Positions 7,747 through 30,378 of a DNA stretch of 33,365 bases are shown here, one piece after another. Position 1 is the stretch's first letter, and the number at the start of each line of letters is the position of its first letter. Under the pieces are notes generated by a model. The model ran no database searches and was not told the origin of the DNA. It saw nothing but the letters and a program-made list of their open reading frames with translations. The position numbers were made by a program, and so were the translations under genes. Source of the stretch: an uncultured Alphaproteobacteria bacterium. GTDB lineage: Bacteria; Pseudomonadota; Alphaproteobacteria; CADEGL01. The stretch covers positions 1 to 33,365 of the forward strand of contig CADEGL010000039.1 of the NCBI GenBank assembly GCA_902826885.1, given 5' to 3'.

Positions 7747-7890
7747 CAGCACTCCTTGGGGGCAATTCGTGCTGCCTATAGCGAACAACACCGCAATCGG
7801 GATTTTGTTCCGAAGTTCGGATTCGATAATTATGGTGATATTTCAAATCCTTAACTGCTTAAGATCGTCTCGCGCAAAAAAATATCGGCG

Positions 7891-7920
7891 TTGCGATTGA
7901 CCGTTTCGCACGCCAATACT
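7891..7920 (+). promoter_or_regulatory. Possible sigma70-type promoter for tRNA-Ser
   Basis: TTGCGA (7891-7896) and AATACT (7915-7920) with an 18-base spacer lie 8 bases before the mature tRNA start. Each box has 4 of 6 consensus bases, and the leader would be very short, so this is tentative. The rest of 7747-7890 is relatively AT-rich with no gene. Confidence 0.25.
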
Positions 7921-7928
7921 CCCGCGCC

Positions 7929-8018
7929 GGATGGGTGGCCGAGCGGTTGAAGGCACCGGTCTTGAAAACCGGCAAGGGCGCAAGCCCTTCGTGGGTTCGA
8001 ATCCCACCCCATCCGCCA
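7929..8018 (+). tRNA. tRNA-Ser (anticodon TGA)
   Basis: The acceptor stem GGATGGG (7929-7935) pairs with CCCATCC (8008-8014), followed by discriminator G and an encoded CCA at 8016-8018. The anticodon stem CCGGT/ACCGG encloses loop CTTGAAA with anticodon TGA at 7963-7965, which reads UCA codons. The T arm is GTGGG-TTCGAAT-CCCAC. A long variable arm (AAGGG-CGCAAG-CCCTT) is typical of the serine class. It stands alone, 77 bases before the hybrid kinase gene, with no integrase nearby. Confidence 0.97.
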
Positions 8019-8095
8019 ATTTTCTTTCCACCCTTCAGGCCCATATGCGCGTTTAACACTCCGGATTGATCACTCGCGCGAATGCAGGACTTTTG

Positions 8096-10054
8096 ATGCC
8101 TCTCCCGACCGGAGCATTCGAGCGCTCGCTGACGCAGGACGGACGCTACCGCCTGTTGGTCGAGGCCGTAACGGACTACGCGATCTACATGCTCGATCCG
8201 ACGGGCATCGTCATGAGTTGGAACGCGGGCGCGCAACGGTTCAAAGGCTATACGAGCGCGGAAATCATCGGCCAGCACGTCTCGCGCTTCTACACCGACG
8301 AAGACCGGCAAAACGGTCAGCCCGAGCGCGCGCTCGAAATCGCGGCGCACGAAGGTAAGTTCGAAGGCGAAGGCTGGCACGTGCGCAAGGACGGCGCGTG
8401 CTTCTGGGCCCATGTCGCGATCGACGCTATCCGAGATCCCGCGGGGAACCTGGTCGGTTTCGCCAAGGTCGTGCGCGATCTGACGGAACGGCGGCAGGCG
8501 GACCTTGTCTTGCGACGAAGTGAAGAGCAGTTCCGCCTGCTCGTGCGGGGCGTCACCGACTATGCCATTTATCTTTTGGACCCCGAGGGCCGCATCACCA
8601 GTTGGAACTTGGGCGCCGAGCGCATCAAAGGTTATGCGCCGGGCGAGATTATTGGCGAGCACTTTTCCCGTTTCTATACCGATGAAGATCGCGCCGCTGG
8701 CGCGCCGAGGCTCGCGCTTGAAACCGCTCTGCGCGAAGGGCGTTTCGAGAAAGAAGGTTGGCGCGTCCGTAAGGGCGGCGAGCGCTTCTGGGCCAACGTC
8801 ATCATTGATCCCGTTCGCAACGATGACGGTATCCTGATCGGCTTCGCCAAGGTCACGCGCGATATCACCGAGCGCAGGAACGCCCAGGTCGAATTGGAAC
8901 AGGCGCGAGAGGCATTGTTCCAGTCGCAAAAGATGGATGCCATCGGCCAGCTTACCGGCGGCATCGCCCATGACTTCAACAATCTTCTCATGGCGATCAG
9001 CAGCAGCCTGGAAATTGTCGGCAAGCGCCTGCCGGACGGCCCCAATATCGCGCCGTTTTTGGACAATGCCATGCAGGCTGCCCAGCGTGGCGCGGCTCTG
9101 ACCCAGCGCATGTTGGCCTTTGCCCGACGGCAGGAGCTGGAAGCCGTCCCGGTGGACATTCCCGCCTTGGTGCAGGGGATGAGCGATCTTCTCCGGCGCA
9201 CCCTTAGTCCACAAATCTCGATCGAATTGCGGTTCCCCCTCTCCCTTCCTCGCGCCCGCGCGGATGCGAACCAGTTGGAGATGGCCCTCCTCAATTTGGC
9301 GGTGAACGCGCGGGACGCCATGCCCCAAGGCGGACCGATCGCCATCGAAGCACGGGAAGAGCGGGTTGTGGAAAGCGCAGGCGCCCTTTCGCCCGGCCTC
9401 TATATCTGCTTGTCGGTGATCGACGCCGGAGAAGGCATGGACGAGGTTACGCTGGCCCGCGCCGTAGAGCCGTTCTTCACCACCAAGGGGATCGGTAAGG
9501 GAACCGGGCTTGGCTTGCCGATGGTGCATGGCTTGGCGGCGCAATTCGGCGGTCAGTTCGTTCTCAAGAGCGTGCTAGGCCGGGGCACGACAGCGGAGAT
9601 CTGGCTGCCGGTGGCCGATGCTCCCGCCGGGGTGGCGGACCTTCCGGTCCCGCCGGAGCCGGCCGCGATGCGGCCGCTCGTCGTGATGGTGGTCGATGAC
9701 GACGCTTTGGTCCTGATGAACACCGCCGCCATGCTGCAAGAGCTCGGTCACACTGTCATCGAGGCCGCGTCTGGAATGGATGCGCTAGAGCGGCTGCGCG
9801 ATGGGGCGGCCGTTGACCTGATGATCACCGACCAGGCCATGCCGCGCATGACCGGCGTCCAATTGATCGCGGCCGTGCGTGCCGAGCAGCCGGGGCTACC
9901 CATCATCCTGGCGACGGGCTATGCGGAACTACCGGTGGGGGCGGACGTCGCGGTGCCGCGTCTGGCCAAGCCCTTCCGGCAAAAGGACCTGATGGCCGTC
10001 ATCGCCGAGGCCGTGCCTGCCCCGCGACCGCCGGTTACTTCCCAAGCTGGTTGA
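8096..10054 (+). CDS. PAS-PAS hybrid histidine kinase with C-terminal receiver
   Basis: Soluble two-component sensor of 652 residues. The ATG at 8096 is preferred over TTG at 8066 because AGGA sits 8 bases upstream. Two PAS domains (about 17-133 and 143-261) are close copies of each other: both share VTDYAIY-LDP, FSRFYTDEDR-like and GFAKV-RD-TERR segments, a tandem internal duplication. The HisKA domain has phospho-acceptor His292 (GGIAHDFNNLL). The HATPase domain has N-box LLNLAVNARDAM, DAGEGM and GTGLGL. The receiver (about 527-640) has acidic VDDD, phospho-acceptor Asp579 and Lys625. There is no membrane segment, so the signal is cytoplasmic. No partner regulator is adjacent. The 3' end overlaps the convergent DUF4239 gene by 20 bases. 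Confidence 0.95.
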   Translation: MPLPTGAFERSLTQDGRYRLLVEAVTDYAIYMLDPTGIVMSWNAGAQRFKGYTSAEIIGQHVSRFYTDEDRQNGQPERALEIAAHEGKFEGEGWHVRKDGACFWAHVAIDAIRDPAGNLVGFAKVVRDLTERRQADLVLRRSEEQFRLLVRGVTDYAIYLLDPEGRITSWNLGAERIKGYAPGEIIGEHFSRFYTDEDRAAGAPRLALETALREGRFEKEGWRVRKGGERFWANVIIDPVRNDDGILIGFAKVTRDITERRNAQVELEQAREALFQSQKMDAIGQLTGGIAHDFNNLLMAISSSLEIVGKRLPDGPNIAPFLDNAMQAAQRGAALTQRMLAFARRQELEAVPVDIPALVQGMSDLLRRTLSPQISIELRFPLSLPRARADANQLEMALLNLAVNARDAMPQGGPIAIEAREERVVESAGALSPGLYICLSVIDAGEGMDEVTLARAVEPFFTTKGIGKGTGLGLPMVHGLAAQFGGQFVLKSVLGRGTTAEIWLPVADAPAGVADLPVPPEPAAMRPLVVMVVDDDALVLMNTAAMLQELGHTVIEAASGMDALERLRDGAAVDLMITDQAMPRMTGVQLIAAVRAEQPGLPIILATGYAELPVGADVAVPRLAKPFRQKDLMAVIAEAVPAPRPPVTSQAG

Positions 10055-10808
10055 TGGCGGCTTTGAAGGGTTCGCTCGGAATCCGGATGTAGCCGGAATA
10101 AGGCTCGTCCATCTCCACGATCATATAAAGTGCTCCGCCGACCGAAAGTGCGCAGACGAACAGCGCCGCGATAACGGAGGCATTGCGCGGCGCGAAAACG
10201 CCGAAGCTGATGAAAACGACGGTCAGCCAGAACACCAGGACGGCCAGGAACGGCCACTGGATTCGCCCGCTCATTTGCTCCAGCAGAAGCCACCGGCTTT
10301 CCGCGATCTTGTCGGCGGCGCGAAGCGCATTGTTTTTGAGAAATTGTTGGCGTTCATCCTTCGGTTGCAGGTTGAAGATCTGATCCTGCAATCTTTCGAT
10401 GCCGCGATCATCTCCGATCGCGTGCCAATCGACGTTGGGCTCCGCGGACGGATCGCCCTCCTCGGCCCAAATGGCTTGCATCCGGGCTTCGGTAACCAAG
10501 CGCAGATACTCGCGGATGGCTTTGGCTTCGGGCCCGTACTGGGACAAGATCCGGTCCAGCACGATGATGTCCGCGGCGGTCTGACGCAGTTCTGTATCCT
10601 TGGTATCGAACCCAGTCTTGGCGGTTGAGATCAGCAGGCTGACCACCAATGCCGAGATGGTGGCCATCATGGCCATGGCGACCTTGATGACGTCCTTGGA
10701 TTCGCTGCTTAAATGATGCTGGGGCAAGGTTCGCCCCGCCAGCATGCCGATAAGCGCGCCCGCGAAGGCGCACAGCGCGACCAGTCCGCCGATCACGAAG
10801 GGGTTCAT
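10035..10808 (-). CDS. DUF4239 family integral membrane protein
   Basis: A 257-residue membrane protein of unknown function that fits the DUF4239 (bestrophin-like) pattern. It has two N-terminal hydrophobic helices (about 4-25 and 42-62). A soluble helical segment (about 65-180) contains ADIIVLDRILSQYGPEAK-type sequence. Two C-terminal helices (about 185-207 and 211-232) precede the tail EPYSGYIRIPSEPF, which is the most conserved part of the family as I know it. The gene is convergent with the hybrid kinase and overlaps it by 20 bases. The 230-base gap to the divergent amine oxidase gene must hold both promoters, but I see no convincing box. Confidence 0.85.
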   Translation of the reverse strand: MNPFVIGGLVALCAFAGALIGMLAGRTLPQHHLSSESKDVIKVAMAMMATISALVVSLLISTAKTGFDTKDTELRQTAADIIVLDRILSQYGPEAKAIREYLRLVTEARMQAIWAEEGDPSAEPNVDWHAIGDDRGIERLQDQIFNLQPKDERQQFLKNNALRAADKIAESRWLLLEQMSGRIQWPFLAVLVFWLTVVFISFGVFAPRNASVIAALFVCALSVGGALYMIVEMDEPYSGYIRIPSEPFKAAINQLGK

Positions 10809-11038
10809 GCTGTTTCGCGCTCGTTTGGGATGAGAGTCCGGGCGAACGAAGGCTGGTCCGATAAGTTGGCACGGGATTCGATACTGCGCAATTCTACTCT
10901 CCCGTCCGCCGGACCCCGCAGCGGTATCGCATCAAAATTTTCCTCGCCGTCCTTGCGTTAGGGGCGTAGCGCCGCCCGCTTTACATCCCCCGCGGCCCCC
11001 GGCTCTATGATCGTCGGCATAAATGGACGGGGGATGAC

Positions 11039-12406
11039 GTGACGGTCGAACGCCATGACGTGGTGATCGTCGGTGGGGGTATCGCGGGGTTGGTGGCGGC
11101 CTGGGCGCTGCGTGACCGCGACGTGGTGTTGATCGAGGCCAAGGACCGTGTCGGTGGGCGTATTTTCAACAAGCGCCGCGATCACAATTGGATGATCACG
11201 GGCGCCCATTTCATCGGCGGGCCGGATTCGCCCATGGGCCAATTGGCCGCCGAGTTGGGGCTCGAGACTATTCGCGCCGAGGGAGAGATGGCGACCGTCT
11301 GGAAGGATGGGCGCTTGGTGCGCGGTGGCCGGTTCGAGACTTATCCGTTCCGCATTCCCCTGTCGCTGGCCGGCCGCCTGTCTCTGATCCGGACGGGCAT
11401 CCGCTTGCGGCTGGCAAACATGCGTGCCCGGCGTTACTCGGACGATCCGATCCGGGGCCTCGACGGATTTGACGGGCCGGCGGTGACCGTCGCGGGCCAT
11501 CCCGGCCTCGACGCGGAAACGTTCGACAAGACGCTCGGCCGCATGCATCCCGAGGTCGAAGCCATCATGCGCACCATCGTCAACCGCGTGACGGCCGAAT
11601 CGCATGAGATGTCCGGGCATTTCGGCGCGGCGCTCGTCGGCAATCTGTGGGCCAAGAAGACAATGGACCGCCGTACCATCCTGGGCGGGCTGACGGAACT
11701 GACCGAGGCCATCGCCCAACGATTGGGCAATCGCGTGATGCGCGATGCGCCCGTCGAGGCGGTCGTGGCGGACAAGGACGGCGTCACCGTGCGCGCGATT
11801 CAAGGCGGGAAAGAAGTGATGATCGCGGCGCGTTATGCCATCGTGGCGACCCCCGCGCCCATCACGCGCCGCATCGTCGCGGGTTTGCCCGGCGACAAGG
11901 CGGCCGCGCTCGATGCCGTGCGCTATGGCCCGTACCTCAACATGGCCATGCTGACCAACGAAGTTGGGCCGATGTCCTATGACGACATCTACATGGTTGG
12001 CGTTATCGATCGTTCCTTTTGCATGCTCTACAACACGATGAACCCCGTGCGGCGGAAGGGCGCGCCCCGCACGCCGGGCGGCGCTTTGGTGGTGCATTCG
12101 GGCGCCCACCAGGCCGCTGCCCTCCTCAAACGCACCGATGATGAGATCCGCGACATTTTTCTGAAGGACGTCTACGAGATCTTTCCCGAGACACGCGGCA
12201 TCGTGACCGAGACATGGGTGCAGCGCTGGGAGTTGGGTTATCCCTATTGGCCGCCCGGCCGGCTCGGTTTCCAGGAGGCTTTGGCGCGGCCGTTTGGCCC
12301 GATCCACTTTTCCGGCGACTATGTGGGTTATGCCTCGACCGGCCCGACCAGCCAAAGTTCCTTTCTGGCCGCCCGGGAAGTGCGTAAGAAGCTTGAGGCT
12401 GCGTAA
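11039..12406 (+). CDS. FAD-dependent amine oxidase family protein
   Basis: A flavoprotein of the monoamine oxidase / protoporphyrinogen oxidase / phytoene desaturase superfamily. The 455-residue protein starts with a Rossmann dinucleotide motif (VVIVGGGIAGL, Gly12-Gly17), acidic residue Glu33 at the end of beta-2, and RVGGR at 38-42. The C-terminal FAD motif is FSGDYVGYAS near 422-431. Oxidation of an amine or an unsaturated carbon skeleton is expected, but the substrate is not deducible. The GTG start at 11039 is set by GGGGGA a few bases upstream; the nearby ATG at 11034 is followed at once by a stop. A VOC dioxygenase-like gene follows after 23 bases, so the two probably act in one pathway. 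Confidence 0.88.
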   Translation: MTVERHDVVIVGGGIAGLVAAWALRDRDVVLIEAKDRVGGRIFNKRRDHNWMITGAHFIGGPDSPMGQLAAELGLETIRAEGEMATVWKDGRLVRGGRFETYPFRIPLSLAGRLSLIRTGIRLRLANMRARRYSDDPIRGLDGFDGPAVTVAGHPGLDAETFDKTLGRMHPEVEAIMRTIVNRVTAESHEMSGHFGAALVGNLWAKKTMDRRTILGGLTELTEAIAQRLGNRVMRDAPVEAVVADKDGVTVRAIQGGKEVMIAARYAIVATPAPITRRIVAGLPGDKAAALDAVRYGPYLNMAMLTNEVGPMSYDDIYMVGVIDRSFCMLYNTMNPVRRKGAPRTPGGALVVHSGAHQAAALLKRTDDEIRDIFLKDVYEIFPETRGIVTETWVQRWELGYPYWPPGRLGFQEALARPFGPIHFSGDYVGYASTGPTSQSSFLAAREVRKKLEAA

Positions 12407-16940: not shown

Positions 16941-17132
16941 ATGCCCAAGAGGCCCCTTACCCGCACCAATAGCGATCGTCCTCGCCGCGTCGGGCCGGAG
17001 GATGAGGACCGGCAGAGCCAGCTGGACGATGGCAAGCACGAGACTGTCGAGGATGTCTTGAAGGACGGCGGGAGGCGCGCAACCGAAGAAGCCGCGGGCG
17101 ATACGGATTGCGGTGGCTTGCCCCGCCGCTAA
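16941..17132 (+). CDS. Small hydrophilic protein, unknown
   Basis: A 63-residue, highly charged protein with Asp/Glu/Arg/Lys in almost half of its positions (GPEDEDRQSQLDDGKHETVEDVLKDG within it) and no hydrophobic core. It is probably disordered or a small helical protein. GGAG lies 8 bases before the ATG. Third codon positions are GC-rich, as expected for coding, although the opposite strand also has an open frame with a hydrophobic stretch. Its TAA overlaps the TAG of the convergent receiver-kinase gene (shared bases 17129-17132). A weak EcfG-like promoter upstream supports it. Confidence 0.5.
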   Translation: MPKRPLTRTNSDRPRRVGPEDEDRQSQLDDGKHETVEDVLKDGGRRATEEAAGDTDCGGLPRR

Positions 17133-18193
17133 GGCAACGCGAAGTCGAAGACGAACCGTGTCCCGTGTGGCACGGGAGGGCGGCTCTCCGCGGCATCCAA
17201 TTTGGAAACCATGGCCTGAACGATCGTGCGGCCGAGTCCACCCCGTTTCGTCCGAAGCGCGTCTTCCGGCGGCATGCCGATGCCTTCGTCCTCGACGATC
17301 AAGGTCGCGTTTTTCTCATCCTTCCGCCGCAGCTCGACGCGAATCGGGCCGTTGCCGTCCGGATAAGCATGTTTTCGTGCGTTAAGCACCAATTCCGTCA
17401 CGATCATGCCGACGGCCACCGCCCGGTCGGGGGTGGTCATCATTTCGTCGGCGTTGAATTGGACCTGATTTACGGACTCGTCTTCCATCGCGCGAGAGAT
17501 ATCGTCCATCAAGAGCCGAAGATAATCGCCGAGCGCGACGGCCTGCACGTCGGTGGAGTTGTAAAGACGGCGATGCACTTGGCCAATGGCCGCGACGCGG
17601 CTGCCGGCGGCCAGCAACGCGTCCTTCACGTCGGGGTTGGATTGGGCGTGGGCCTTCATATTAAGCAGCGATACGGCCAGTTGAAGGCTGTTGCTGACAC
17701 GATGATTGACCTCGCGCATCAGCAAGGCACGCTCGTTTGCCAATGCCTCGAACTTATCGCGCGCTTCTCGCACTTCGGCCTGCGCGGCCTCGCGCAGCAA
17801 GCGCAGCTCCCGCGCGGCCAACGATGATTCGATGGCCGCGCGTAGAAGCGGCAGGAATGTGCCCGAGACGTCCTTGATCACATAGTCAGCCGCTCCCGCT
17901 TTCAACGCGGCCACCGCGACGCGCCCCTCCGTAGTGCCCGTGACGTAGACGACCGGAGGTGGATTCGGCCGTTTCCGAATCTCGCCGAGGGTCGCCAGGC
18001 CGTCCTTGCCTTCCATGTAATGATCGAGCGCGACCAGGTCGAACTCCCGCTCGCTCAGGCACCGCAGGCCGTCGGCGCCGCAGGTCGCCGTCTCGACCTC
18101 ATAGCCGTAGCGCGCCAGATGCTTCTGGACGAGACGTCCGATCCCGGCGTCGTCGTCGATATAGAGAATGCGCGTGGGAGCTTTGTCGTTCAT
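17129..18193 (-). CDS. Receiver-HisKA_2 histidine kinase
   Basis: A soluble 354-residue signalling protein with a receiver followed by a kinase. The receiver (about 8-122) has acidic DDD at 13-15, phospho-acceptor Asp57 (VALDHYM) and Lys107. After a coiled helix (125-155) comes a HisKA_2 dimerisation domain with His164 in REVNHRVSNSLQL, the hallmark of HWE/HisKA_2 kinases. The HATPase domain has TELVLNARKHAY, DEGIGM and GGLGRTIV. It is the last gene of a four-gene operon; its ATG overlaps the preceding TGA (ATGA at 18190-18193), so translation is coupled. HisKA_2 kinases commonly control the alphaproteobacterial general stress response through PhyR, and it may do so here (inference). Confidence 0.93.
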   Translation of the reverse strand: MNDKAPTRILYIDDDAGIGRLVQKHLARYGYEVETATCGADGLRCLSEREFDLVALDHYMEGKDGLATLGEIRKRPNPPPVVYVTGTTEGRVAVAALKAGAADYVIKDVSGTFLPLLRAAIESSLAARELRLLREAAQAEVREARDKFEALANERALLMREVNHRVSNSLQLAVSLLNMKAHAQSNPDVKDALLAAGSRVAAIGQVHRRLYNSTDVQAVALGDYLRLLMDDISRAMEDESVNQVQFNADEMMTTPDRAVAVGMIVTELVLNARKHAYPDGNGPIRVELRRKDEKNATLIVEDEGIGMPPEDALRTKRGGLGRTIVQAMVSKLDAAESRPPVPHGTRFVFDFALP

Positions 18194-18624
18194 GCAGCCG
18201 GAACTTGGATCACCGCGAAGAACAATCCCAATTGGCGGATCGCGTTGGCGAAGTTGTCGTAGTTGACCGGTTTCGTAATGTAGACATTGGCGCCGAGATC
18301 ATAGCAGCGCTGGATTTCCGCCTTGTCATCCGTCGTGGTCAAGACGACGACGGGTGTGCATCGCAGGCCGGGCGATTCCTTGACCCGTCTTAGAATTTCG
18401 GTACCGCTCATGTCTGGAAGGTTCAAATCTAACAGAATGAGCAGCGCCTTGCCTTGGGCGATGCTGTCCTTGCCTTCGCCGAACAGGTAGTTCACGGCGT
18501 CGGTACCGTTGGTGAAGGACGTGATGGGGTTGTTGACGCCCGCGCGCCGGATATTCTTTTCGATCAAACGCGCATGGCCCTCGTCGTCTTCGATCATCAC
18601 GATCGTCACGAGTTTTTCGTTCAT
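18190..18624 (-). CDS. Single-domain response regulator (Rcp1-like)
   Basis: A 144-residue stand-alone receiver. It has acidic EDD at 12-14, phospho-acceptor Asp66 (LLDLNLPDMSG), the TTTDD switch segment and Lys in YITKPVNY. It has the longer alpha-4/beta-5 region and final helix typical of Rcp1-like regulators that accept phosphate from membrane or phytochrome-like kinases. There is no output domain, so it probably shuttles phosphate. ATG at 18624 is favoured: its AGAGGA Shine-Dalgarno overlaps the stop of the upstream CHASE3 kinase (8-base gap). It overlaps the next gene by four bases. Confidence 0.93.
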   Translation of the reverse strand: MNEKLVTIVMIEDDEGHARLIEKNIRRAGVNNPITSFTNGTDAVNYLFGEGKDSIAQGKALLILLDLNLPDMSGTEILRRVKESPGLRCTPVVVLTTTDDKAEIQRCYDLGANVYITKPVNYDNFANAIRQLGLFFAVIQVPAA

Positions 18625-18632
18625 CTTTCCTC

Positions 18633-20126
18633 TCAATCCTCCAAGACCAGCGCGCGGGGCAGGATGACGGTGAACACGCTGCCCTTGCCCAGCTCGCTAT
18701 CGATTCCAATGCGCCCGCCCAAGCGCCGGACCAGCATGCGCACATGCGCCAGTCCGATGCCCTCGCCCGGCCGATCCTGTTGGCCCGAGCGACGGAAAAG
18801 CTCGAAAATCCGTTCGCTGTCCTTGACGTCGATGCCGCGCCCGTTGTCGCTCACGCGAACGATGACGAAATTGCCCTTCTCGGTGGCGGAGACTTCGATC
18901 TCGCCCTTCACGCCCGGGCGCAGGTACTTAAGGGCATTGTCGAGAAGATTCGAGAAAATCTGCTCGATCGCCAGGCGATCCGTGGCGATCGTCGGCAAGG
19001 GCCGGATCGAGATGGTGGCATCGGTCGATTGGAGCTGATGGGCCAGCGTGCTGCGGATGGAACGGATCGTGGCGTCCAGATCGATCGGCTCGACCTTGAA
19101 CTCCTGATGGCCGACCCGGGACAAGCGCAGAATCGCCGTGATGAGCCGGTCCATTTTGCCAATGGCGGTCTTGATGAAACCCAACGCTTCATCGAAGTCC
19201 TTTCCGGTCTCCTCGATTTCCGCCTGAGCGCCGCTTGCCTTCACGCGGTCGAACATATCTTGCCGCAGCGCCTCGAGTTCGCTGGTGAAGCCCATGATGT
19301 TCACCAGGGGGGACCGGAGGTCGTGGCTCACGATATAGGCGAAGCGCTGAATCTCCTGGTTGGCGGTCTGGAGGGCCGCAGTGCGTTCCTGAACCCGCTC
19401 CTCCAGGCTCACGTTGATCAGTTCGAGTTGCTTTTGCGCCTCCCGCTGTATGGCCGCGGCGCGGCGCACCTCGGCGACGGAAACAGTCGCCAGAAATATG
19501 ATCATCAGGCCGCCGGCCAAACTCACGCCCAACAGCCATAAGCGGGTGTCTCGCGCATCTTTGCTGCGCGCCGCCAAGAGTTGGTTTTCCTCAAAGCGCA
19601 TCCGGTCGATCACACCGATGATAGCGAGCGATACCGACGGATCGTCTTCGTTTCGCATTAAAGCCAGCGCTTTGTCGGGCCGGCCGTCGATCGTCAAGGA
19701 TACCGGCGCCTGCAGTTCTTTTACGCGCAGGTCGATGAGGGACTTCAACTGGTCGGCCCGCTGGATCTGTGGAGAGTTGTCGCCCAGCAGCGTTCTCAGC
19801 TTGTCATAGGTGCCGGGAATGTCATCCAGGGCCCGGCGGTAGAGGTCGAGATACGCGGACGACCCGGTCAGGACATAGCCATATTGGCTGCTTGTCGCGC
19901 GGTGCATGAGAAGCTGAATCTCGGAAAGCTGACCACCGACTTCCACCGTATGGGTTACCCAATCGGCATCACGTTTGGCCTCATCGAAGAGCCAGACCGA
20001 GACACCGCACATGATAACGAGGATGACGAAGCCCGCGGAAAGCATCCAGACGTGCCGCGCGCCTCGCAGCCTGCCGCGAGCCGGGTGGGGGATCGTGGAT
20101 GTGAGAGCGGTCATTGTCCCGGCCAT
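18633..20126 (-). CDS. CHASE3-domain membrane histidine kinase
   Basis: A 497-residue membrane sensor. TM1 lies at about 27-47. A periplasmic CHASE3 domain occupies about 50-190 (RATSSQYGYVLTGSSAYLD is characteristic). TM2 lies at about 196-217, then a coiled linker. The HisKA domain has phospho-acceptor His268 (AYIVSHDLRSPL), the variant common in phytochrome-type kinases. The HATPase domain has FSNLLDNALKY, DNGRGI and GEGIGLAHVR. The start ATG shares one base with the stop of the upstream receiver (TGATG), giving tight coupling. It is the sensor of the four-gene operon; CHASE3 ligands are generally unknown. Confidence 0.95.
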   Translation of the reverse strand: MAGTMTALTSTIPHPARGRLRGARHVWMLSAGFVILVIMCGVSVWLFDEAKRDADWVTHTVEVGGQLSEIQLLMHRATSSQYGYVLTGSSAYLDLYRRALDDIPGTYDKLRTLLGDNSPQIQRADQLKSLIDLRVKELQAPVSLTIDGRPDKALALMRNEDDPSVSLAIIGVIDRMRFEENQLLAARSKDARDTRLWLLGVSLAGGLMIIFLATVSVAEVRRAAAIQREAQKQLELINVSLEERVQERTAALQTANQEIQRFAYIVSHDLRSPLVNIMGFTSELEALRQDMFDRVKASGAQAEIEETGKDFDEALGFIKTAIGKMDRLITAILRLSRVGHQEFKVEPIDLDATIRSIRSTLAHQLQSTDATISIRPLPTIATDRLAIEQIFSNLLDNALKYLRPGVKGEIEVSATEKGNFVIVRVSDNGRGIDVKDSERIFELFRRSGQQDRPGEGIGLAHVRMLVRRLGGRIGIDSELGKGSVFTVILPRALVLED

Positions 20127-20530
20127 CAATTTACGCTCTGAGCGAGTGCGTCACGGATAGCCTGTGCCAGAGCCGCGGGTGCGAACGGTTTGGCCAGGAA
20201 AGACGTGCGCGGCCCCGGCGCGGCGCTCATCGTTCGCCGTTCGTCGTAGCCCGTGACGAAAATGATGCGCACGTCTGGGCGCAAGGCGCGAACTTCAGCG
20301 GCCAGCTCCACGCCTGGGATATCGGGCAGGCCGATATCCGTGATCAGAATGTCCGCCCCGCCCCCGGCGCGTAAATAATCCAACGCAGCCGAGCCGTTGG
20401 CCGCGGCTGTGGTTGCATATCCCAGGTCCTTCAAGGTTTCGATGGAGGACAGGCGCATCAACTCGTCATCGTCCACGAACAGGATGCGCACCTGCGTGGC
20501 TGATTTACCGGCACATGGGGTTGCGGACAT
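20126..20530 (-). CDS. Single-domain response regulator (CheY-like)
   Basis: A 134-residue receiver and first gene of the operon. It has acidic DDD at 20-22, phospho-acceptor Asp65 (ILITDIGLPDIPG), TGYDE and Lys in FLAKPFAP. This FixJ/hybrid-type receiver sequence resembles the C-terminal receivers of hybrid kinases. ATG at 20530 is chosen because the receiver fold begins soon after; the frame upstream to 20656 covers the promoter. No output domain. It is tightly coupled to the CHASE3 kinase gene and has an EcfG-like promoter 43 bases upstream. Confidence 0.92.
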   Translation of the reverse strand: MSATPCAGKSATQVRILFVDDDELMRLSSIETLKDLGYATTAAANGSAALDYLRAGGGADILITDIGLPDIPGVELAAEVRALRPDVRIIFVTGYDERRTMSAAPGPRTSFLAKPFAPAALAQAIRDALAQSVN

Positions 20531-20572
20531 GCAATAGCGTACCGGGGGCTGGATCGGCGCAGAGCGACGGTT

Positions 20573-20598
20573 AAACCACCCGCTTGCGCGTTTGTTCC
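20573..20598 (-). promoter_or_regulatory. EcfG-like promoter for the four-gene signalling operon
   Basis: Minus strand GGAAC (20598-20594), 16-base spacer, GGTT (20577-20574) then T. The -10 element lies about 43 bases before the ATG at 20530. Confidence 0.6.
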
Positions 20599-20624
20599 AA
20601 AAAGGGAAACGCACTCCTACTCTA

Positions 20625-20636
20625 GTGCGATCGCAC
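20625..20636. promoter_or_regulatory. Perfect 12-base palindrome upstream of the signalling operon
   Basis: GTGCGATCGCAC lies 27 bases upstream of the -35 element, a usual place for an activator site. The neighbouring 20640-20701 stretch is AT-rich and otherwise empty. Confidence 0.4.
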
Positions 20637-20701
20637 GATACTTTGAAGTTTTCCACGATGGTTTGAGATTTTTGGATAAGGCATTGAATAAAAATAACAA
20701 C

Positions 20702-23700: not shown

Positions 23701-23910
23701 CCGTGAGGTCTCCTTGATCCGCGAAAGGCCATAGCATGAATTCCATAGCGACGCTTGAGAGGAATCCTTGCCGCATCGCTTTGTGATGCAAACTGCAAAT
23801 AATCGGTAGCACCTAGAAGGAATTACGGTATTCTTTCGGTAGGCGGGGGTTTAGTGGACATCCGCCGGGTATCAAGGCTCGTCGACCCACGGGGGCGTGG
23901 CGACGGGCTG

Positions 23911-24798
23911 ATGGCGCGATCGGGGGAGAAGCGCGTGCTGCACAGACGGTTTTTTCTGGCGTTCGTGGCTGTCCTGTTGGCGGCATCGGGATTTTGCGCG
24001 TCAGCGGCGATTGCCCAGCCGTCGGCATCCGCGGCCAAGCCGCCCATCATGGCGCCGGACATCAAGCGAATCTTGGACCGCGGCAAGCTGATCGTGGCCA
24101 TGACGAGCTTCGACGTGCCGCCCTTCTTCATGACGGACGCGAACGGACGCTTCTACGGCCTGGACGTCAGCTTGGCCGAGGGGATCGCGAAGAGTCTGGG
24201 CGTGCCGGTCGAATACAACCGTCAGGGCAAAAGCTTCAACGACGTGGTCGACATCGTCATTCGCGGCGATGCTGACATGGCGATTTCCAAACTCAGCCTC
24301 ACGATGGCGCGCGCCATGAAGGTGCGCTTCTCGCAGCCCTATCTCGTCCTGCGTCATGGCCTGTTGGTCAACCGGCTGGACATGGCCAAGATGGCGAAGG
24401 GCAAGGAGATGGTCGACTTCATCAAGGGCTATAACGGTTCCATCGGTGTGCTCGCGAAATCGTCATTCGTCGATTATGCGGCGGAATTCTTCCCCAAGGC
24501 GAAAGTCGTCGAGTACCCGAATTGGGAGCCAGCCCTAGTCAGCGCGGTGAGCCGCGGAGAAGTGCCCGTCGCCTATCGTGACGAGTTGGAGGTCAAGAAG
24601 GTCATTCGCGGCAATCCGACCGCGGCGCTTAACCTCCGGACGATTCTGATCGACGGAACGCGCGACGACATCGCCATCGCCGTTCCCTGGGATAGCGAGC
24701 AGCTCCTGTCGGTTGTGAATCTCTACCTTTCGCGCCAGAAGCCGCTGACGGTGAATGGGCTTCTCGACCAATACGAAGAAATCTTCACCAAGAAATGA
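23911..24798 (+). CDS. Periplasmic family-3 solute-binding protein
   Basis: Predicted periplasmic amino-acid-type binding protein (SBP_bac_3). The signal peptide ends FCASAAIAQ. The mature fold starts IMAPDIKRILDRGKLIVAM and continues FDVPPFF, FYGLDVSLAEGIAKSLGV, the ADMAISKLSLTMARAMKVRFS hinge segment and GVLAKSSFVDYA. The start is uncertain: ATG at 23911 is given, but GTG at 23935 has the better Shine-Dalgarno (GGGGGAG, 6 bases) and GTG at 23854 is also open; all give a signal peptide. No ABC permease or ATPase is present. Instead a DAACS-type secondary transporter follows after 42 bases, so the pair probably works together. The ligand is likely an amino acid or dicarboxylate. Confidence 0.88.
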   Translation: MARSGEKRVLHRRFFLAFVAVLLAASGFCASAAIAQPSASAAKPPIMAPDIKRILDRGKLIVAMTSFDVPPFFMTDANGRFYGLDVSLAEGIAKSLGVPVEYNRQGKSFNDVVDIVIRGDADMAISKLSLTMARAMKVRFSQPYLVLRHGLLVNRLDMAKMAKGKEMVDFIKGYNGSIGVLAKSSFVDYAAEFFPKAKVVEYPNWEPALVSAVSRGEVPVAYRDELEVKKVIRGNPTAALNLRTILIDGTRDDIAIAVPWDSEQLLSVVNLYLSRQKPLTVNGLLDQYEEIFTKK

Positions 24799-24840
24799 CC
24801 ATGCGCCGCATAGCGGCCTCAAATCGGCAAGGTGGCGAGT

Positions 24841-26214
24841 ATGGCTAAAGCAGAAACCGCGGGTGTGACCCGGAAGCGCGTCTACGATTTGGGGCTCGTG
24901 GGAAAGCTTCTCTCCAGTTCATGGGTGATCTTCGCCAGCCTTTTACTCGGTCTCTATATCGGATTCTTCCATAAGGATCTGGCAGCGGCCATCGGCCCCT
25001 TCGGCACGGTCTATCTGGCCCTCCTGAAGATGTGCCTTCTGCCTTTCCTGATCTCCGCAATCACCGTGAGTCTGGTGAAATTGCTCAAGACCCATACGGC
25101 GGCCAACAGCCTGCGCCGCATCGTCGCCGTCTTCGTCGGCGGTCTTTTGCTGTGCACGCTCTATGCGGTGGTCTTCGGCGCCGTCGAAGGGCCCGGCCGC
25201 GACCTCGATGAGAGCTCCCGCGCCGTCCTCGGCAACATGGTGGACCGTTCACCCTATGCGGTCGATCTGGAGATGTCGCTGACCGGTCCGACCGTGGAGA
25301 AAAAAAGCGAGAGCAGCACGGAAACGGTCATTCGACAGCTCATCCCTGACAACATCTTCAACGCGCTCAGCAGTGGCGACAGCCTGAAGGTCCTCTTCTT
25401 CGCGATCATCTTCGGCGCCGCGGTCGGGTTCAGCTCCCGCCACGTGGGCGACGGCCTGTCCGCGACGTTGGATACGATCTACCATGCTTGCCAGCGCGTC
25501 ATTCAGTGGGTCAATTACGTCTTGCCCTTCGCGCTTTGCGCGCTTGTGGCCAGCCAAATCGCCATCGTGGGGCTTGAGCCGCTGGTCGCGATGGTCCGCT
25601 TCATCGTGTCCTTTACGCTTGCCGTTGTCCTCTTGATGGTGGTCTGCAGTCTCATCATCTGGGCGCGCGGCCGCGTCAGCTATTTCCAATCGATCATGGC
25701 ACTGCGTGAAGCCGTCCTGATCGCGATCGGTACGCGCAGCAGCATCGCGTGTATCCCCTCCGTCATTCGAGCGATGGAAAAGGATTTGGGTTTCGACAAG
25801 ACGATGGTCGAATTGGTGGCGCCGCTCAGCATCACCATTTGCCGTTTTGGCCCCACGCTCTATTACGGCGTCGCGACGATCTTCGTGGCGCAGCTCTACG
25901 GCATCCAGCTAGGGGTCGCCGAGTACGTCTCGATTTTTATCGGCTCCTTCCTGGCGGGCTTGGCATCCGCAGGCACCACCGGCATCCTGACCATTACGTT
26001 GCTGAGCCTCGTGTTCGCGCCCTTGGGCCTGCCGCTGGAGGCGGCCCTGGTGCTGTTCATCACCATCGATCCGCTGGTCGACATCGTGCGGACGGTGGCG
26101 ATCGTCTACCCGAACTGCGCGGCGGTGGCGATGGTGTGTGGCCCGGACAAAGAATGGGTGCCGCCGGGCGACGCCAAGCAACCGTCCGGCCAGACGAGCT
26201 CCGCCGCGGCCTAG
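24841..26214 (+). CDS. DAACS/SDF-family secondary transporter, divergent
   Basis: A 457-residue membrane protein of the GltP/DctA/EAAT fold (dicarboxylate/amino acid:cation symporter). ATG at 24841 has AAGGTGG 5 bases upstream; GTG at 24832 is less likely. Hairpin 1 keeps TRSS (298-301). In TM7 the nearly invariant NMDGT is replaced by CRFGP (334-338). In TM8 Asp410, Asp414, Arg417 and Thr418 are kept, but the Asn and Asp that help bind sodium in GltPh read Ile421 and Asn425. Coupling to sodium by the usual sites therefore looks lost. A charged insert (about 135-165, EKKSESSTET) follows an early helix. It is co-directional with the binding-protein gene and overlaps the convergent racemase gene by four bases. 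Confidence 0.88.
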   Translation: MAKAETAGVTRKRVYDLGLVGKLLSSSWVIFASLLLGLYIGFFHKDLAAAIGPFGTVYLALLKMCLLPFLISAITVSLVKLLKTHTAANSLRRIVAVFVGGLLLCTLYAVVFGAVEGPGRDLDESSRAVLGNMVDRSPYAVDLEMSLTGPTVEKKSESSTETVIRQLIPDNIFNALSSGDSLKVLFFAIIFGAAVGFSSRHVGDGLSATLDTIYHACQRVIQWVNYVLPFALCALVASQIAIVGLEPLVAMVRFIVSFTLAVVLLMVVCSLIIWARGRVSYFQSIMALREAVLIAIGTRSSIACIPSVIRAMEKDLGFDKTMVELVAPLSITICRFGPTLYYGVATIFVAQLYGIQLGVAEYVSIFIGSFLAGLASAGTTGILTITLLSLVFAPLGLPLEAALVLFITIDPLVDIVRTVAIVYPNCAAVAMVCGPDKEWVPPGDAKQPSGQTSSAAA

Positions 26215-26930
26215 GTTTCGGCGGTCCCGCGCCGGCCATGCGCCCAGGCCACGCAAGCCTGGGCTAGAGCCGCGGTGGAATCGACGTAACGCGCGGTCGC
26301 CTCGGGACTCGCATCGGCGAGCGCCAGGGGAATTTCAGTACACCCCAGCACGATCATTCGTGCGCCTCGATCGCCGAGACGCCGCGCGGCGTCGCCCAAC
26401 TTCCTCTTCGCGGACGCCAGATCGCCGGCTTTCACAGACACGATGCCGGGCATGACCAGTTCGGCCATCTCCGTGTCGCTCGGCAGCACGCAGTGATAGC
26501 CGCTCCGCTGGAGATACCCCTGGTAGATTCCTGTGTGCAGGGTGCCCGCGGTTCCCATCACGCCGACCGCGCCGCTGTCGATCCCCCTCTCCCGCAGCAG
26601 GTCGCAGACACTTCCCACGATATGCAGGATTGGGACCCGGCTGGCGGCGGCCATCTCGTCGTACCAGTAATGCGCGGTGTTGCAGGGGATCGCGATGGCT
26701 TCGGCGCCGGCGTTCTGTAGGCGCGCGATGCCGTCCAGCAAAGCGGGCAATGGAGATTCGCCCCTCCCCATGATGGCGGTCGAGCGGTCGGGGACCTGCG
26801 GGTTGGAATAGACCAGCGCCGGGATATGGTCCTGGTCGCGCGACGCGGGCGTCAGTTCGGTCAGCTTCCGCATGAAATCCGCGGTCGCCAACGGGCCCAT
26901 GCCGCCAAGGACGCCCAATAGCTTGGGCAT
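26211..26930 (-). CDS. Aspartate/glutamate racemase family protein
   Basis: A PLP-independent two-cysteine racemase of 239 residues. It has the N-terminal GVLGGMGPLATADF motif. Catalytic Cys83 lies in IPCNTAH and Cys197 in LGCTEIPL, and there is a GVMGTAGT segment. This is the aspartate-racemase (RacD/YgeA) branch rather than MurI, judging from GGMGP and CTEIP. Predicted to interconvert L- and D-Asp or a related amino acid. It starts 2 bases after the stop of the adenylate cyclase gene, so both are one transcript. It converges on, and overlaps by four bases, the transporter gene. Confidence 0.93.
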   Translation of the reverse strand: MPKLLGVLGGMGPLATADFMRKLTELTPASRDQDHIPALVYSNPQVPDRSTAIMGRGESPLPALLDGIARLQNAGAEAIAIPCNTAHYWYDEMAAASRVPILHIVGSVCDLLRERGIDSGAVGVMGTAGTLHTGIYQGYLQRSGYHCVLPSDTEMAELVMPGIVSVKAGDLASAKRKLGDAARRLGDRGARMIVLGCTEIPLALADASPEATARYVDSTAALAQACVAWAHGRRGTAET

Positions 26931-26932
26931 GC

Positions 26933-29092
26933 CTATTTCTCCTGCATCTCCATGACGCCGCTCCAGTTGGCGTCGGGTGGATTAGCCAGCAGCTCACGAC
27001 AGCGCTCGGCGAACTTCGCCACCACCCGGTCTTCCGGATAGGCCTCGGCGGCGTGCGTATAGGTACGCAGCGCCTTTTCCCATTTGCGGTCCATATAGGC
27101 GAAGAATGCCTTGTTGGTGCGCGCGGCCAGGTCACGCTGGCCATCGGTCGCGCCGACGTCGCTGGTATCGTCCGCGGCCATCAGCTCGTACACGGTGATG
27201 CCGCCGCGACGCCCTTTCACCGCGACATGGTCGACGGGACGCATGACGAACAAATCGCCCGTCTCGCGGAACACCGCCTCGCTGACGCAGATGCGCGTGC
27301 CGTAGGCCTTGTTCACGCCCTCCAGGCGCGAGGCCACGTTCACGCCATCGCCGATGGCGGTGTAGCTCATGCGCTCGGACGATCCGATATTGCCGACCAC
27401 GACCGTGTCGGTATGGATGCCGATGCGTGCAGACAGCGTGGGTTCGCCTTCCCCTTCGAACGCTTCGTTCATCGCGTCCATCTGGCGCTGGATCAGAAGC
27501 GCGGAACGGCAAGCATTGGTGGCATGCTCGACCTGAGGCAGCGGCGCGCCCCAGAAGGCCATGACCGAGTCGCCGATGAACTTGTCGATCGTGCCGTGAT
27601 TGCGCAGCACGATCTTGGTGACCATGTCGAAATGCTGCGAGATCAGCAGCATCAGGTTGCGGGCGGGCAAGCGCTCGGACAGGCGCGAAAAGCTGGCAAG
27701 ATCCGAGAACATGATGGTCAGGCGCTGGGTTTGGCCGCCCAATTCCATCGACTTGCCGCTGGCCAGAAGCTGCTGTACCAGGCCACGCGGTACGAAGCGG
27801 GAAAACGAGTGAATCGTCGTCTTCATGGCGCGCATCGCGTCGATCAGCTCGCGAATCTCGGTGATCCGAGAGCTGATCTTGACGTCGTCCTCGAGCGCCA
27901 ATTCGCGGATCTTCTTCGTCTCGCCGATGACCTGCCGGATCGGCCTGGTGATGCGGCGCGACAGATACGCTACGGCCAGGATCGCGATCAGGCCCACGCC
28001 GGCCGAAATCATCATGATGTCCTGGGTGGTCCGCTTAAGGTCTCCGACGAAATCGTTCTCCGGAACCAGGATCACGATCGTCCATTGTTTCTGGAATGCG
28101 CGCGGGAAAGATTGGAACGACGCCAGGTAGGTGACGCCGTTGAATTTGTAGCTGAAGCGCTCTCCCGCACCTTCCTTCCGGCGTTCGAAGGCCTCGACGA
28201 TATAGGGTTCGCCCAAATCCTTGATGGTCGGCAATGCGACCGTTAGCCCGTCCTGACGCACAGAGCGCCCGGCATCGGGAAAGGCCACGACCTCGCCCTT
28301 GTCGCCGACGATGAAGGCAATTCCGTGCTTGCCGATCTTCTGGCGCTTGAGGAAGGCCGACATGCTTTCGAGCGTGATGTCGGCGCCGACGACACCGATG
28401 AACTTGTTGCTCCGGTCGCGCACCGCGCGGCTGATCGTGATGCCGGGTTTTCGGTTGCTCGCGAAAACGTAGATGTCCGACAGGAAGGAGAATTCACTGT
28501 CCTTGGCGCCATTGTAAAACGGGCGCTTGCGCGGATCATAGGCTACGTTGCGCAGTGCTTCGACGCCCGTCTGGGTGTTCCAGTCGCTGATATAGCGGTA
28601 GGAATCGATCGATTCGGCTCCCTTCCGGTCGAGGGTGCGCAGGACGAACCGGGAGCCGGGCGCAACCGGACTGTTATTGGGCCCGAAGGTGGCCGCGTTG
28701 TCGGGAATGCGTTGGGCCTGGATGAACCGGCCATTCTCGTCGAAGCCGATATAGGCGCTGTAGACGTGCGGGTACGATTTCAGCACCTGCAACAGGTGCC
28801 GCAGCATTTCGGGCTGGTGCAGGAGGTTTTCGTGGAATTGGCCGATGACGGCCAGTTCGTCCACGGCCGCCGAGACCGGTTCCAAAAGATAGACGGTGTT
28901 ATCGATGGTCGATGATGTCGCCGAATCGAGGAAGGAATCGGCGAACTGCAACACCAGATGGGAATTGCGCTCGTAGGTGTACCAGGTGATGGACGCGCAG
29001 ATGAACACCAGCAACGCAACGAACGACGTCGCGATGCTGACCTGCAGCGATAGACCGCGGCGGCGCGGTTCTTGGGCGGCGCTTTCCGACAT
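26933..29092 (-). CDS. Membrane adenylate cyclase: dCache-HAMP-class III cyclase
   Basis: Makes cAMP in response to a periplasmic ligand. From the ATG at 29092 (719 residues; 29134 is possible, no start has a good Shine-Dalgarno): TM1 about 18-38, a double-Cache sensor about 40-345, TM2 about 358-378, HAMP about 379-430. The cyclase domain (about 455-625) keeps metal ligands Asp464 (MFSDLASF) and Asp508 (IGDSVMAF), adenine-binding Lys504 with Thr578, and transition-state Asn585 and Arg589 (GVNVASRLEG). This fits ATP rather than GTP. A TPR-like C-terminus (WEKALRTYTHAAEAYPED) follows. It is first in an operon with the Asp/Glu racemase. dCache domains often bind amino acids or carboxylates. Confidence 0.93.
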   Translation of the reverse strand: MSESAAQEPRRRGLSLQVSIATSFVALLVFICASITWYTYERNSHLVLQFADSFLDSATSSTIDNTVYLLEPVSAAVDELAVIGQFHENLLHQPEMLRHLLQVLKSYPHVYSAYIGFDENGRFIQAQRIPDNAATFGPNNSPVAPGSRFVLRTLDRKGAESIDSYRYISDWNTQTGVEALRNVAYDPRKRPFYNGAKDSEFSFLSDIYVFASNRKPGITISRAVRDRSNKFIGVVGADITLESMSAFLKRQKIGKHGIAFIVGDKGEVVAFPDAGRSVRQDGLTVALPTIKDLGEPYIVEAFERRKEGAGERFSYKFNGVTYLASFQSFPRAFQKQWTIVILVPENDFVGDLKRTTQDIMMISAGVGLIAILAVAYLSRRITRPIRQVIGETKKIRELALEDDVKISSRITEIRELIDAMRAMKTTIHSFSRFVPRGLVQQLLASGKSMELGGQTQRLTIMFSDLASFSRLSERLPARNLMLLISQHFDMVTKIVLRNHGTIDKFIGDSVMAFWGAPLPQVEHATNACRSALLIQRQMDAMNEAFEGEGEPTLSARIGIHTDTVVVGNIGSSERMSYTAIGDGVNVASRLEGVNKAYGTRICVSEAVFRETGDLFVMRPVDHVAVKGRRGGITVYELMAADDTSDVGATDGQRDLAARTNKAFFAYMDRKWEKALRTYTHAAEAYPEDRVVAKFAERCRELLANPPDANWSGVMEMQEK

Positions 29093-29247
29093 GCCGGTTA
29101 CGATGATCTCCCCCGATTTCCGCAAGGATCGCATGGGGTCGCGGCGAATTCTAGACAGCAAAATTGAGGGGATGAATCGCCCGCTGTGACGGGGCGGGCC
29201 GGACCGCTATGCTCGGGCCTGGACATCTTCTTGGACGGTCTTTCGCC

Positions 29248-30378
29248 ATGAACCTCGACCAGCTCCAGACGCCCGCCCTGCTCCTCGAGCGTCCTGTGCT
29301 CGAGCGCAACATCGCGGCCATGACCGGCCGCGCGAAACGACACGGCGTTGCCCTGCGCCCGCATATGAAGACCGCGAAGTCCGCCAAGGTCGCGTCCCTG
29401 GCCACGGCCGGCAACAAGGGCGGTATCTGCGTCTCGACCGTGGCGGAAGCCGAGTATTTCGCGCGCCACGGCTTCCGCGACATCACTTACGCCTTTGGCA
29501 TCGTGCCACAGAAAATCGAGCGCCTGGCCAAGCTGCGGGCCGATGGCGTGTCGGTCCGTCTGCTGGTCGACGATGTGGCCAACGTCAAAGCCGTGGCCGA
29601 GCGGGCGAAGGCCTTAGGCGCCTCGTTTGACGTCCAGATCGAGGTCGATAGCGGCCAGAACCGAGGCGGTCTCAAGCCCGATGATCCGAAGCTTGGCGAG
29701 GTCGGCTGGGCACTGGCGGGCAGCGGCGCCTTGCGCTTTCTCGGCGTTCTGACTCACGGCGGCCACTCCTATGACTGCCGCGGCGCGGCCGATTGCCGGC
29801 GTGTAGCAGAAGAAGAGCGCGCGGCCATCGTAGCCGCCGCCGAGCGCTTGTCGGCGGCGGGCCTGCCATGCGCCGAAGTGAGTCCCGGCGCCACGCCGAA
29901 CGCGGTTCACGCCACGCGGCTGGACGGCGTTACCGAGATACGGCCCGGCAATTACATGTTCTTCGATTTGCATCAGACCGGGATCGGCTCATGCACCGTG
30001 GACGAAATCGCGGTTAGCGTTTTGACCACCGTGGTCGGCCATAACCGCGCGCATAACCGCATCGTGATCGACGCCGGCGGATTGGCGCTGTCGAAGGACA
30101 TCGGCGCGAATGAGCCGCTACCGAACACGGGTTACGGCTGGGTGATGGACCTATCCGGTAAGACGCGCATTGGCGACCTGCGCGTCGGCCGGGTCAGCCA
30201 GGAACATGGGCAGATCGAAAGCGATTCGCCCCTGCCCTTTGACCGCCTGCCGATTGGCGCGCGCGTGCGCGTTCTGCCCAACCACTCCTGCATGACCGCC
30301 GCGGCCTACGAGCACTACAACGTGCTCGATGGCGGCGCGGACGTGATCGACCAGTGGGACCGGATCAACGGCTGGTAG
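29248..30378 (+). CDS. DSD1-type PLP enzyme (D-serine dehydratase / D-threonine aldolase family)
   Basis: A fold-type III (alanine-racemase-like) PLP enzyme of 376 residues acting on D-hydroxy amino acids. The PLP Lys41 lies in RPHMKTAK. The TPALLL N-terminus, EVDSGQNRGG, LTHGGHSYD and SPGATPNA are family features. A metal site near the C-terminus has His346 and Cys348 (LPNHSC), as in eukaryotic-type D-serine dehydratase, where zinc is bound. D-Ser deamination, D-Thr aldol cleavage and 3-hydroxy-D-aspartate cleavage are all possible. ATG at 29248 matches the family start; the Shine-Dalgarno is weak. It is divergent from the cyclase-racemase operon and overlaps the convergent acyl-CoA dehydrogenase by 14 bases. 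Confidence 0.92.
   Translation: MNLDQLQTPALLLERPVLERNIAAMTGRAKRHGVALRPHMKTAKSAKVASLATAGNKGGICVSTVAEAEYFARHGFRDITYAFGIVPQKIERLAKLRADGVSVRLLVDDVANVKAVAERAKALGASFDVQIEVDSGQNRGGLKPDDPKLGEVGWALAGSGALRFLGVLTHGGHSYDCRGAADCRRVAEEERAAIVAAAERLSAAGLPCAEVSPGATPNAVHATRLDGVTEIRPGNYMFFDLHQTGIGSCTVDEIAVSVLTTVVGHNRAHNRIVIDAGGLALSKDIGANEPLPNTGYGWVMDLSGKTRIGDLRVGRVSQEHGQIESDSPLPFDRLPIGARVRVLPNHSCMTAAAYEHYNVLDGGADVIDQWDRINGW

Follow-up and report, generated by a model that had tools for sequence, protein, structure and literature searches.

GltPh and related proteins, the textbook example of elevator transport and the model system for the human EAATs, are assumed to act alone. The locus described here, part of a window of 33,365 nucleotides (the whole stretch of DNA that was analysed), raises the question of whether one branch of this fold is served by a dedicated solute-binding protein (SBP). 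The original prediction held that a family-3 SBP delivers its ligand to a GltP/DctA-fold carrier encoded directly behind it, as a TRAP-like system on a different fold.

The SBP gene lies at 23911..24798 on the plus strand, encodes a secreted protein and matches Pfam SBP_bac_3 with E = 1.8e-17. Its reading frame (23854-24798, plus strand) could be extended to a GTG at 23854; the ATG at 23911, which the original prediction also used, is the probable start, and the stretch behind it reads, by eye, as a typical Sec signal peptide. The protein retains the Arg (in LTMAR) and the Asp (in YRDE) that are characteristic of amino-acid SBPs, both likewise placed by eye. The second gene, at 24841..26214 on the plus strand, encodes a divergent glutamate-transporter-fold membrane protein (Pfam SDF, E = 1.6e-67; frame 24832-26214, plus strand, with a possible extension to a GTG at 24832 and a probable start at the ATG at 24841). 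Both genes are intact, and their frames and Pfam matches confirm the predicted arrangement, with 42 bases between the SBP stop and the second ATG. The PF00375 match of the membrane protein is full-length (profile positions 3-384 of 387), and it can be aligned to the solved structures of GltPh, GltTk, EAAT and AncInt, the best solved match being AncInt (9bgz). The NCBIfam models for GltP, DctA and SstT match it far under their cut-offs (118 bits vs 638 for GltP), so it is not an ordinary member of the family. An AlphaFold2 run with the window protein and one relative as input gave a mean pLDDT of 36. The window genome (3.87 Mb) holds four SBP_bac_3 matches and a single SDF gene, the paired one. 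As had been claimed, no ABC partner is in reach: Pfam and NCBIfam searches found neither an ABC permease nor an ATPase among the genes adjoining the pair, where an ABC importer would have an adjacent TIGR01726-type permease and an ATPase, and there is no TRAP or TTT family among the Pfam and NCBIfam matches of the two proteins, where such a system would have a DctP/TAXI or TctC-type SBP and QM or TctAB membrane subunits. Public annotation labels the two genes separately.

The same pair is present in a sister genome (91% identity), which was the sole find in a scan of genome contigs, and in distant genomes at about 30% identity. A profile run over 385 Alphaproteobacteria split off the SDF clade to which the window protein belongs, hereafter SDF*, with scores of at least 212 bits vs at most 172 bits for ordinary SDFs. 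Further members came from a phylum-wide search beyond Alphaproteobacteria and a plasmid search, so that coverage is that of the Pseudomonadota; the named plasmid carriers are Gemmobacter aquarius, Cupriavidus sp. P-10 and Paraburkholderia phymatum. A matching SBP stands beside SDF*, or is separated from it by a cyclase alone, in 22 of the 23 assessable genome loci. With the three plasmids, all of which carry the SBP, 25 of 26 assessable loci are paired vs 0 of 61 ordinary SDF loci with an SBP on the same strand; Fisher tests on this linkage ignore shared ancestry, and the loci come from over a dozen families. The one SDF* locus without an SBP is that of G149 (L081). Two further SDF* genes start at contig ends, and in one of these genomes, G353, the end of another contig carries a matching SBP. 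Adjacency is thus conserved in relatives, as the original prediction required, and a dedicated SBP is conservedly linked here with a protein of secondary-carrier fold. SBP-SDF* fusions were not found; three long frames (545-711 aa) had the SDF domain alone according to Pfam.

Several loci depart from the simple arrangement. Two ordinary SDF loci (L100 and L101) have a weak SBP match of 49-50 bits on the opposite strand, which is probably unrelated to the pairing seen with SDF*. Some SDF* loci seem to have two SBPs: an extra SBP_bac_3-type gene precedes the second SDF* of G412 (L120, 3506-4354) and, as a weak match, the SDF* of G427 (L126, 5763-6560), and two SBPs follow SDF* in L086.

Phylogeny places the 34 SDF* sequences, second copies included, on one side of a single branch (SH-aLRT 100, length about 1.5). 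The linked SBPs likewise separate as one group (support 100) from other SBPs that these genomes encode, with a gap in profile score of 267 vs 116 bits, and the window SBP falls in this clade, which is linked to SDF* only. Distances among the SBPs follow those among their SDF* partners (r 0.76). In the 18 genomes compared, the correlation persists after removal of the SecY distance (partial r 0.63, Mantel p 0.0002), which bears out the expected co-evolution as co-variation beyond the species signal. The pairing in the window is confirmed as real and beyond chance.

What kind of protein SDF* might be is best approached from its binding sites. In TM7 the codons at 25840..25854 (plus strand) encode CRFGP where alignment to GltPh puts the ion- and substrate-binding motif NMDGT (GltPh 310-314). 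Compared with GltPh, the window protein carries the substitutions N310C, M311R, D312F, T314P, N401I and D405N. Its Na3-site residues in TM3 are gone as well; D390, D394, R397 and T398 are kept. The losses extend to the clade: N310 is retained in 4/34 SDF*, D312 in 0/34, N401 in 1/34 and D405 in 0/34, and Arg stands in place of Met311 in 28/34, while 31 ordinary SDFs have N310 in 31/31, N401 in 30/31 and M or L at 311 in all. D390, R397 and T398 are still common in SDF*; D394 and R397 vary in part of the clade, which makes one substrate for all of it unlikely. The published Na+ signature consists of [S/T]92-93, N310, M/S311, D/E312 and D/E405 (PMC12668577), and the window protein has G92, C310, R311, F312 and N405. 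The H+ signature consists of a hydrophobic residue at 92, Leu311, Asn405 and the putative protonation site Glu279 (PMC12668577); at these positions the window has G92, R311, N405 and I279. Across SDF*, Asn405 (20/34) and a hydrophobic 92 are common, and Leu311 and Glu279 occur in 1/34 each, so that H+ coupling by the known signature is disfavoured. The label TRAP-like, in the sense of ion-coupled uptake, is not supported: the known Na+ residues are lost and the known H+ signature is lacking. A cation-independent exchanger of the glutamate-transporter family, AncInt, has been demonstrated, and uncoupled members adjoin amino-acid-metabolism genes (PMC12668577). Arg311 may stand in for the coupling cation in SDF*. 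The TM3-TM4 loop is longer in SDF* (median 53 vs 41 residues in ordinary SDFs, with overlapping ranges), and one might speculate that it forms a docking site.

Two further genes recur with the pair. Convergent with SDF* in the window is an amino-acid racemase at 26211..26930 on the minus strand, of the CuyB (cysteate racemase) family according to NF052483 (268.5 bits, cut-off 190); CuyB interconverts L- and D-cysteate (PMC11382572). A racemase follows SDF* in six other loci (G681, G632, G429, Gemmobacter, Cupriavidus and Paraburkholderia), where NF052483 scores 196-223 bits, again above the cut-off. By this model all seven belong to the CuyB family, and the activity is predicted. CuyB-type racemases were found in 0 of the 61 ordinary SDF loci, and this count, with the six further SDF* loci, led us to reject a chance neighbour. 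In four of the six racemase loci a second SDF-like gene comes next. This gene, seen after the racemase in L121, L133, L134 and L132 and after SDF* in L123, is more divergent and has its own altered TM7 and TM8 motifs; it could possibly supply a different subunit to the same trimer, or be an exporter.

The second partner is a dCache-HAMP-class III adenylate cyclase, found in the window at 26933..29161 on the minus strand (Pfam dCache_1, HAMP and Guanylate_cyc), whose probable start, by comparison with the sister genome, is an ATG near 29092. In eight genomes a full-length cyclase of this architecture lies between SBP and SDF*. In a ninth it adjoins the SBP and SDF* is divergently oriented, in the sister genome it is near the pair as in the window, and G017 has one on another contig. 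Against a profile of the in-operon cyclases built without the window, the window cyclase scores 692 bits vs 522 for the next group, on which ground we rejected it as a chance neighbour. Cyclases of this type track SDF*, occurring in 12/15 SDF* genomes vs 6/370 others. The latter six (L181-L186; 712-895 bits) have neither SBP nor SDF* within 1.5 kb. All 12 module cyclases keep the catalytic motifs, namely two metal Asp, the substrate Lys and the catalytic Asn and Arg, roles that we take from general knowledge of the family. The amino-acid motif of dCache_1AA domains is Y121, R126, W128, Y129, Y144 and D173 in PctA numbering (PMC10104139). The window domain, with positions assigned by eye, has Y, R, F, Y and Y at the first five, and an Asp at 173 or the adjoining position; among the module cyclases the motif, likewise aligned by eye, is mostly but not wholly kept, and several deviate.

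Both partners are found in the window and in the sister genome, on the strand opposite to the pair, so they are not co-transcribed with it. The racemase subclade has no adjacent cyclase. Divergent from the window cyclase is a D-threonine-aldolase-like PLP enzyme at 29209..30378 on the plus strand (Pfam Ala_racemase_N and D-ser_dehydrat). It is related to the 3-hydroxy-D-aspartate aldolase BhcC, at 157 bits far below the cut-off of 690, and is found in the same position in the sister genome only. It is peripheral, and its membership in the module is uncertain; its presence alongside the racemase is a hint of D-amino-acid metabolism. Elsewhere in the window, a signalling cluster on the minus strand (17129-20656) comprises a response regulator fused to an HWE/HisKA_2 histidine kinase (17132-18193), a CHASE3 histidine kinase (18636-20129) and a response-regulator-like frame (20126-20656), and a bestrophin-like membrane protein is encoded at 10038-10808. 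The long frames at 220-2298, 7859-9544 and 10958-12355 have no Pfam match and are probably spurious frames of a GC-rich genome.

With a little more belief than doubt, we read SBP and SDF* as an ion-uncoupled, SBP-fed amino-acid carrier with a racemase sink, a cyclase sensor or both. The two proteins would act together as a binding-protein-dependent carrier built on the elevator fold of the glutamate transporters. The SBP would capture an amino acid, probably an acidic or sulfonated one (aspartate-, glutamate- or cysteate-like, D or L), a ligand class suggested by the SBP family, the kept D394 and R397 and the racemase. It would then contact SDF* and hand the ligand over, and SDF* would most likely move it without Na+ coupling. 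Uptake could be sustained by capture outside and enzymatic removal inside, by the racemase and the enzymes that come after it. The dCache cyclase of the window and of the second subclade may sense the ligand, or the state of the SBP and SDF*, and signal through cAMP.

The main rival, which we hold to be possible though doubtful, is that the assembly is a sensory complex and that SDF* is a transporter-derived receptor or coupler. It is the recurrence of the racemase and the cyclase as SDF* partners that opens this reading. The loss of the coupling residues fits a non-transporting protein equally well, and nine small genomes have the cyclase, not a metabolic enzyme, as third partner. The placement of the cyclase between or beside the two genes there and close to them in the window and the sister genome, its tracking of SDF*, its intact catalytic residues and its mostly kept amino-acid motif all point the same way, and DctA, which shares the fold family, has been proven to act as a co-sensor (PMC4280142). 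Yet the racemase subclade, with no adjacent cyclase, is a better fit to uptake, six genomes have the cyclase without SDF*, and the carrier-site residues D390, R397 and T398 are still common in SDF*. The racemase subclade thus favours transport and the cyclase subclade sensing, and one ancestral SBP-SDF* unit may have been put to both.

A strictly TRAP-like system, in which the SBP feeds a carrier whose coupling to H+ or another ion relies on residues without a known coupling role in this fold, seems improbable. The pairing, the clades and the absent ABC partner speak for such a carrier as they do for the uncoupled one, SDF* is enriched in acidic or basic residues at some positions, and published work leaves room for H+-coupled members with other residues (PMC12668577). 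It has to contend, however, with the loss of the known Na+ residues and with the rarity of Leu311 and Glu279, even though the other two positions of the H+ signature are commonly filled.

The original prediction would also have failed had an ABC permease elsewhere been the clear partner. The model for polar-amino-acid ABC permeases, TIGR01726, found no match in nine SDF* genomes (G017, G028, G089, G353, G149, G301, G212, G412 and G427), which are drafts of 91-100% completeness; it matched in 11 of 14 control genomes and is blind to permeases outside it. In G028, G301 and G212 the module SBP is the sole SBP_bac_3 protein of the genome. The window genome has polar-amino-acid ABC permeases over the cut-off on another contig (C14), and these stand beside a different SBP. 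No clear partner of this kind emerged. It is very improbable that the SBP serves an ABC permease from another locus and owes its place beside SDF* to regulation or chance: some SDF* genomes (G632, G429 and G187) are rich in amino-acid ABC permeases and the window genome has its own on C14, but those have their own SBP, nine genomes are without TIGR01726, three have no other SBP_bac_3 and the module SBPs form a clade apart from the ABC-type SBPs, all of which disfavours an orphan ABC SBP.

On the uncoupled-carrier reading, the kind of system is known and the class appears undescribed. Before TAXI-GltS, the secondary transporters known to use a soluble SBP were TRAP and TTT only (PMC12344293). 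The 2025 paper on TAXI-GltS asks whether something about elevators permits the recruitment of SBPs, a question for which further classes are a test (PMC12344293); a branch of the best-understood elevator that is linked to an SBP would putatively be such a class. That paper does not mention DAACS or SDF, and our literature search, limited to open-access texts, found no published SBP-SDF pair. A clade from which the Na+ sites have been removed would in addition be a natural experiment in which to study ion coupling, and the recurrence of the Cache cyclase points to a possible wiring of nutrient capture to cAMP.

The closest known parallel is TAXI-GltS (BP0403-GltS of Bordetella pertussis; PMC12344293), in which an SBP gene is likewise coupled to a gene of Na+/amino-acid symporter type, not to TRAP or ABC, and the membrane part is of elevator type. 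There, however, the SBP is TAXI, the carrier is GltS, from another family, and fusions are known, whereas here the SBP is of family 3 (ABC type), the carrier has the SDF fold with its Na+ residues lost, and no fusion was found. With TRAP (DctP-QM, TAXI) and TTT the pair would share the nature of an SBP-dependent secondary system, but its families are unrelated by sequence, no small Q-type subunit was seen and the Na+ signature is missing. By sequence SDF* belongs to the same fold family as the DAACS/SDF carriers (GltPh, GltTk, GltP, DctA, EAATs; TC 2.A.23), with D390, D394, R397 and T398 often kept, and it departs from them in its dedicated SBP, the replaced NMDGT (CRFGP in the window), the lost N401 and D405 and the Arg at 311. 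AncInt and ExtInt (PMC12668577) resemble SDF* in that they are predicted to lack ion coupling and lie beside amino-acid enzymes, but they are known from Firmicutes, AncInt keeps ion-site residues, and an SBP term was not found in the main text of that paper. The DctA/DcuS system of E. coli (PMC4280142) is alike in that an SDF protein is linked to a sensor in the membrane whose ligand domain is periplasmic, and differs in that the output with SBP-SDF* would be a cyclase, an SBP is present and the contact is putative.
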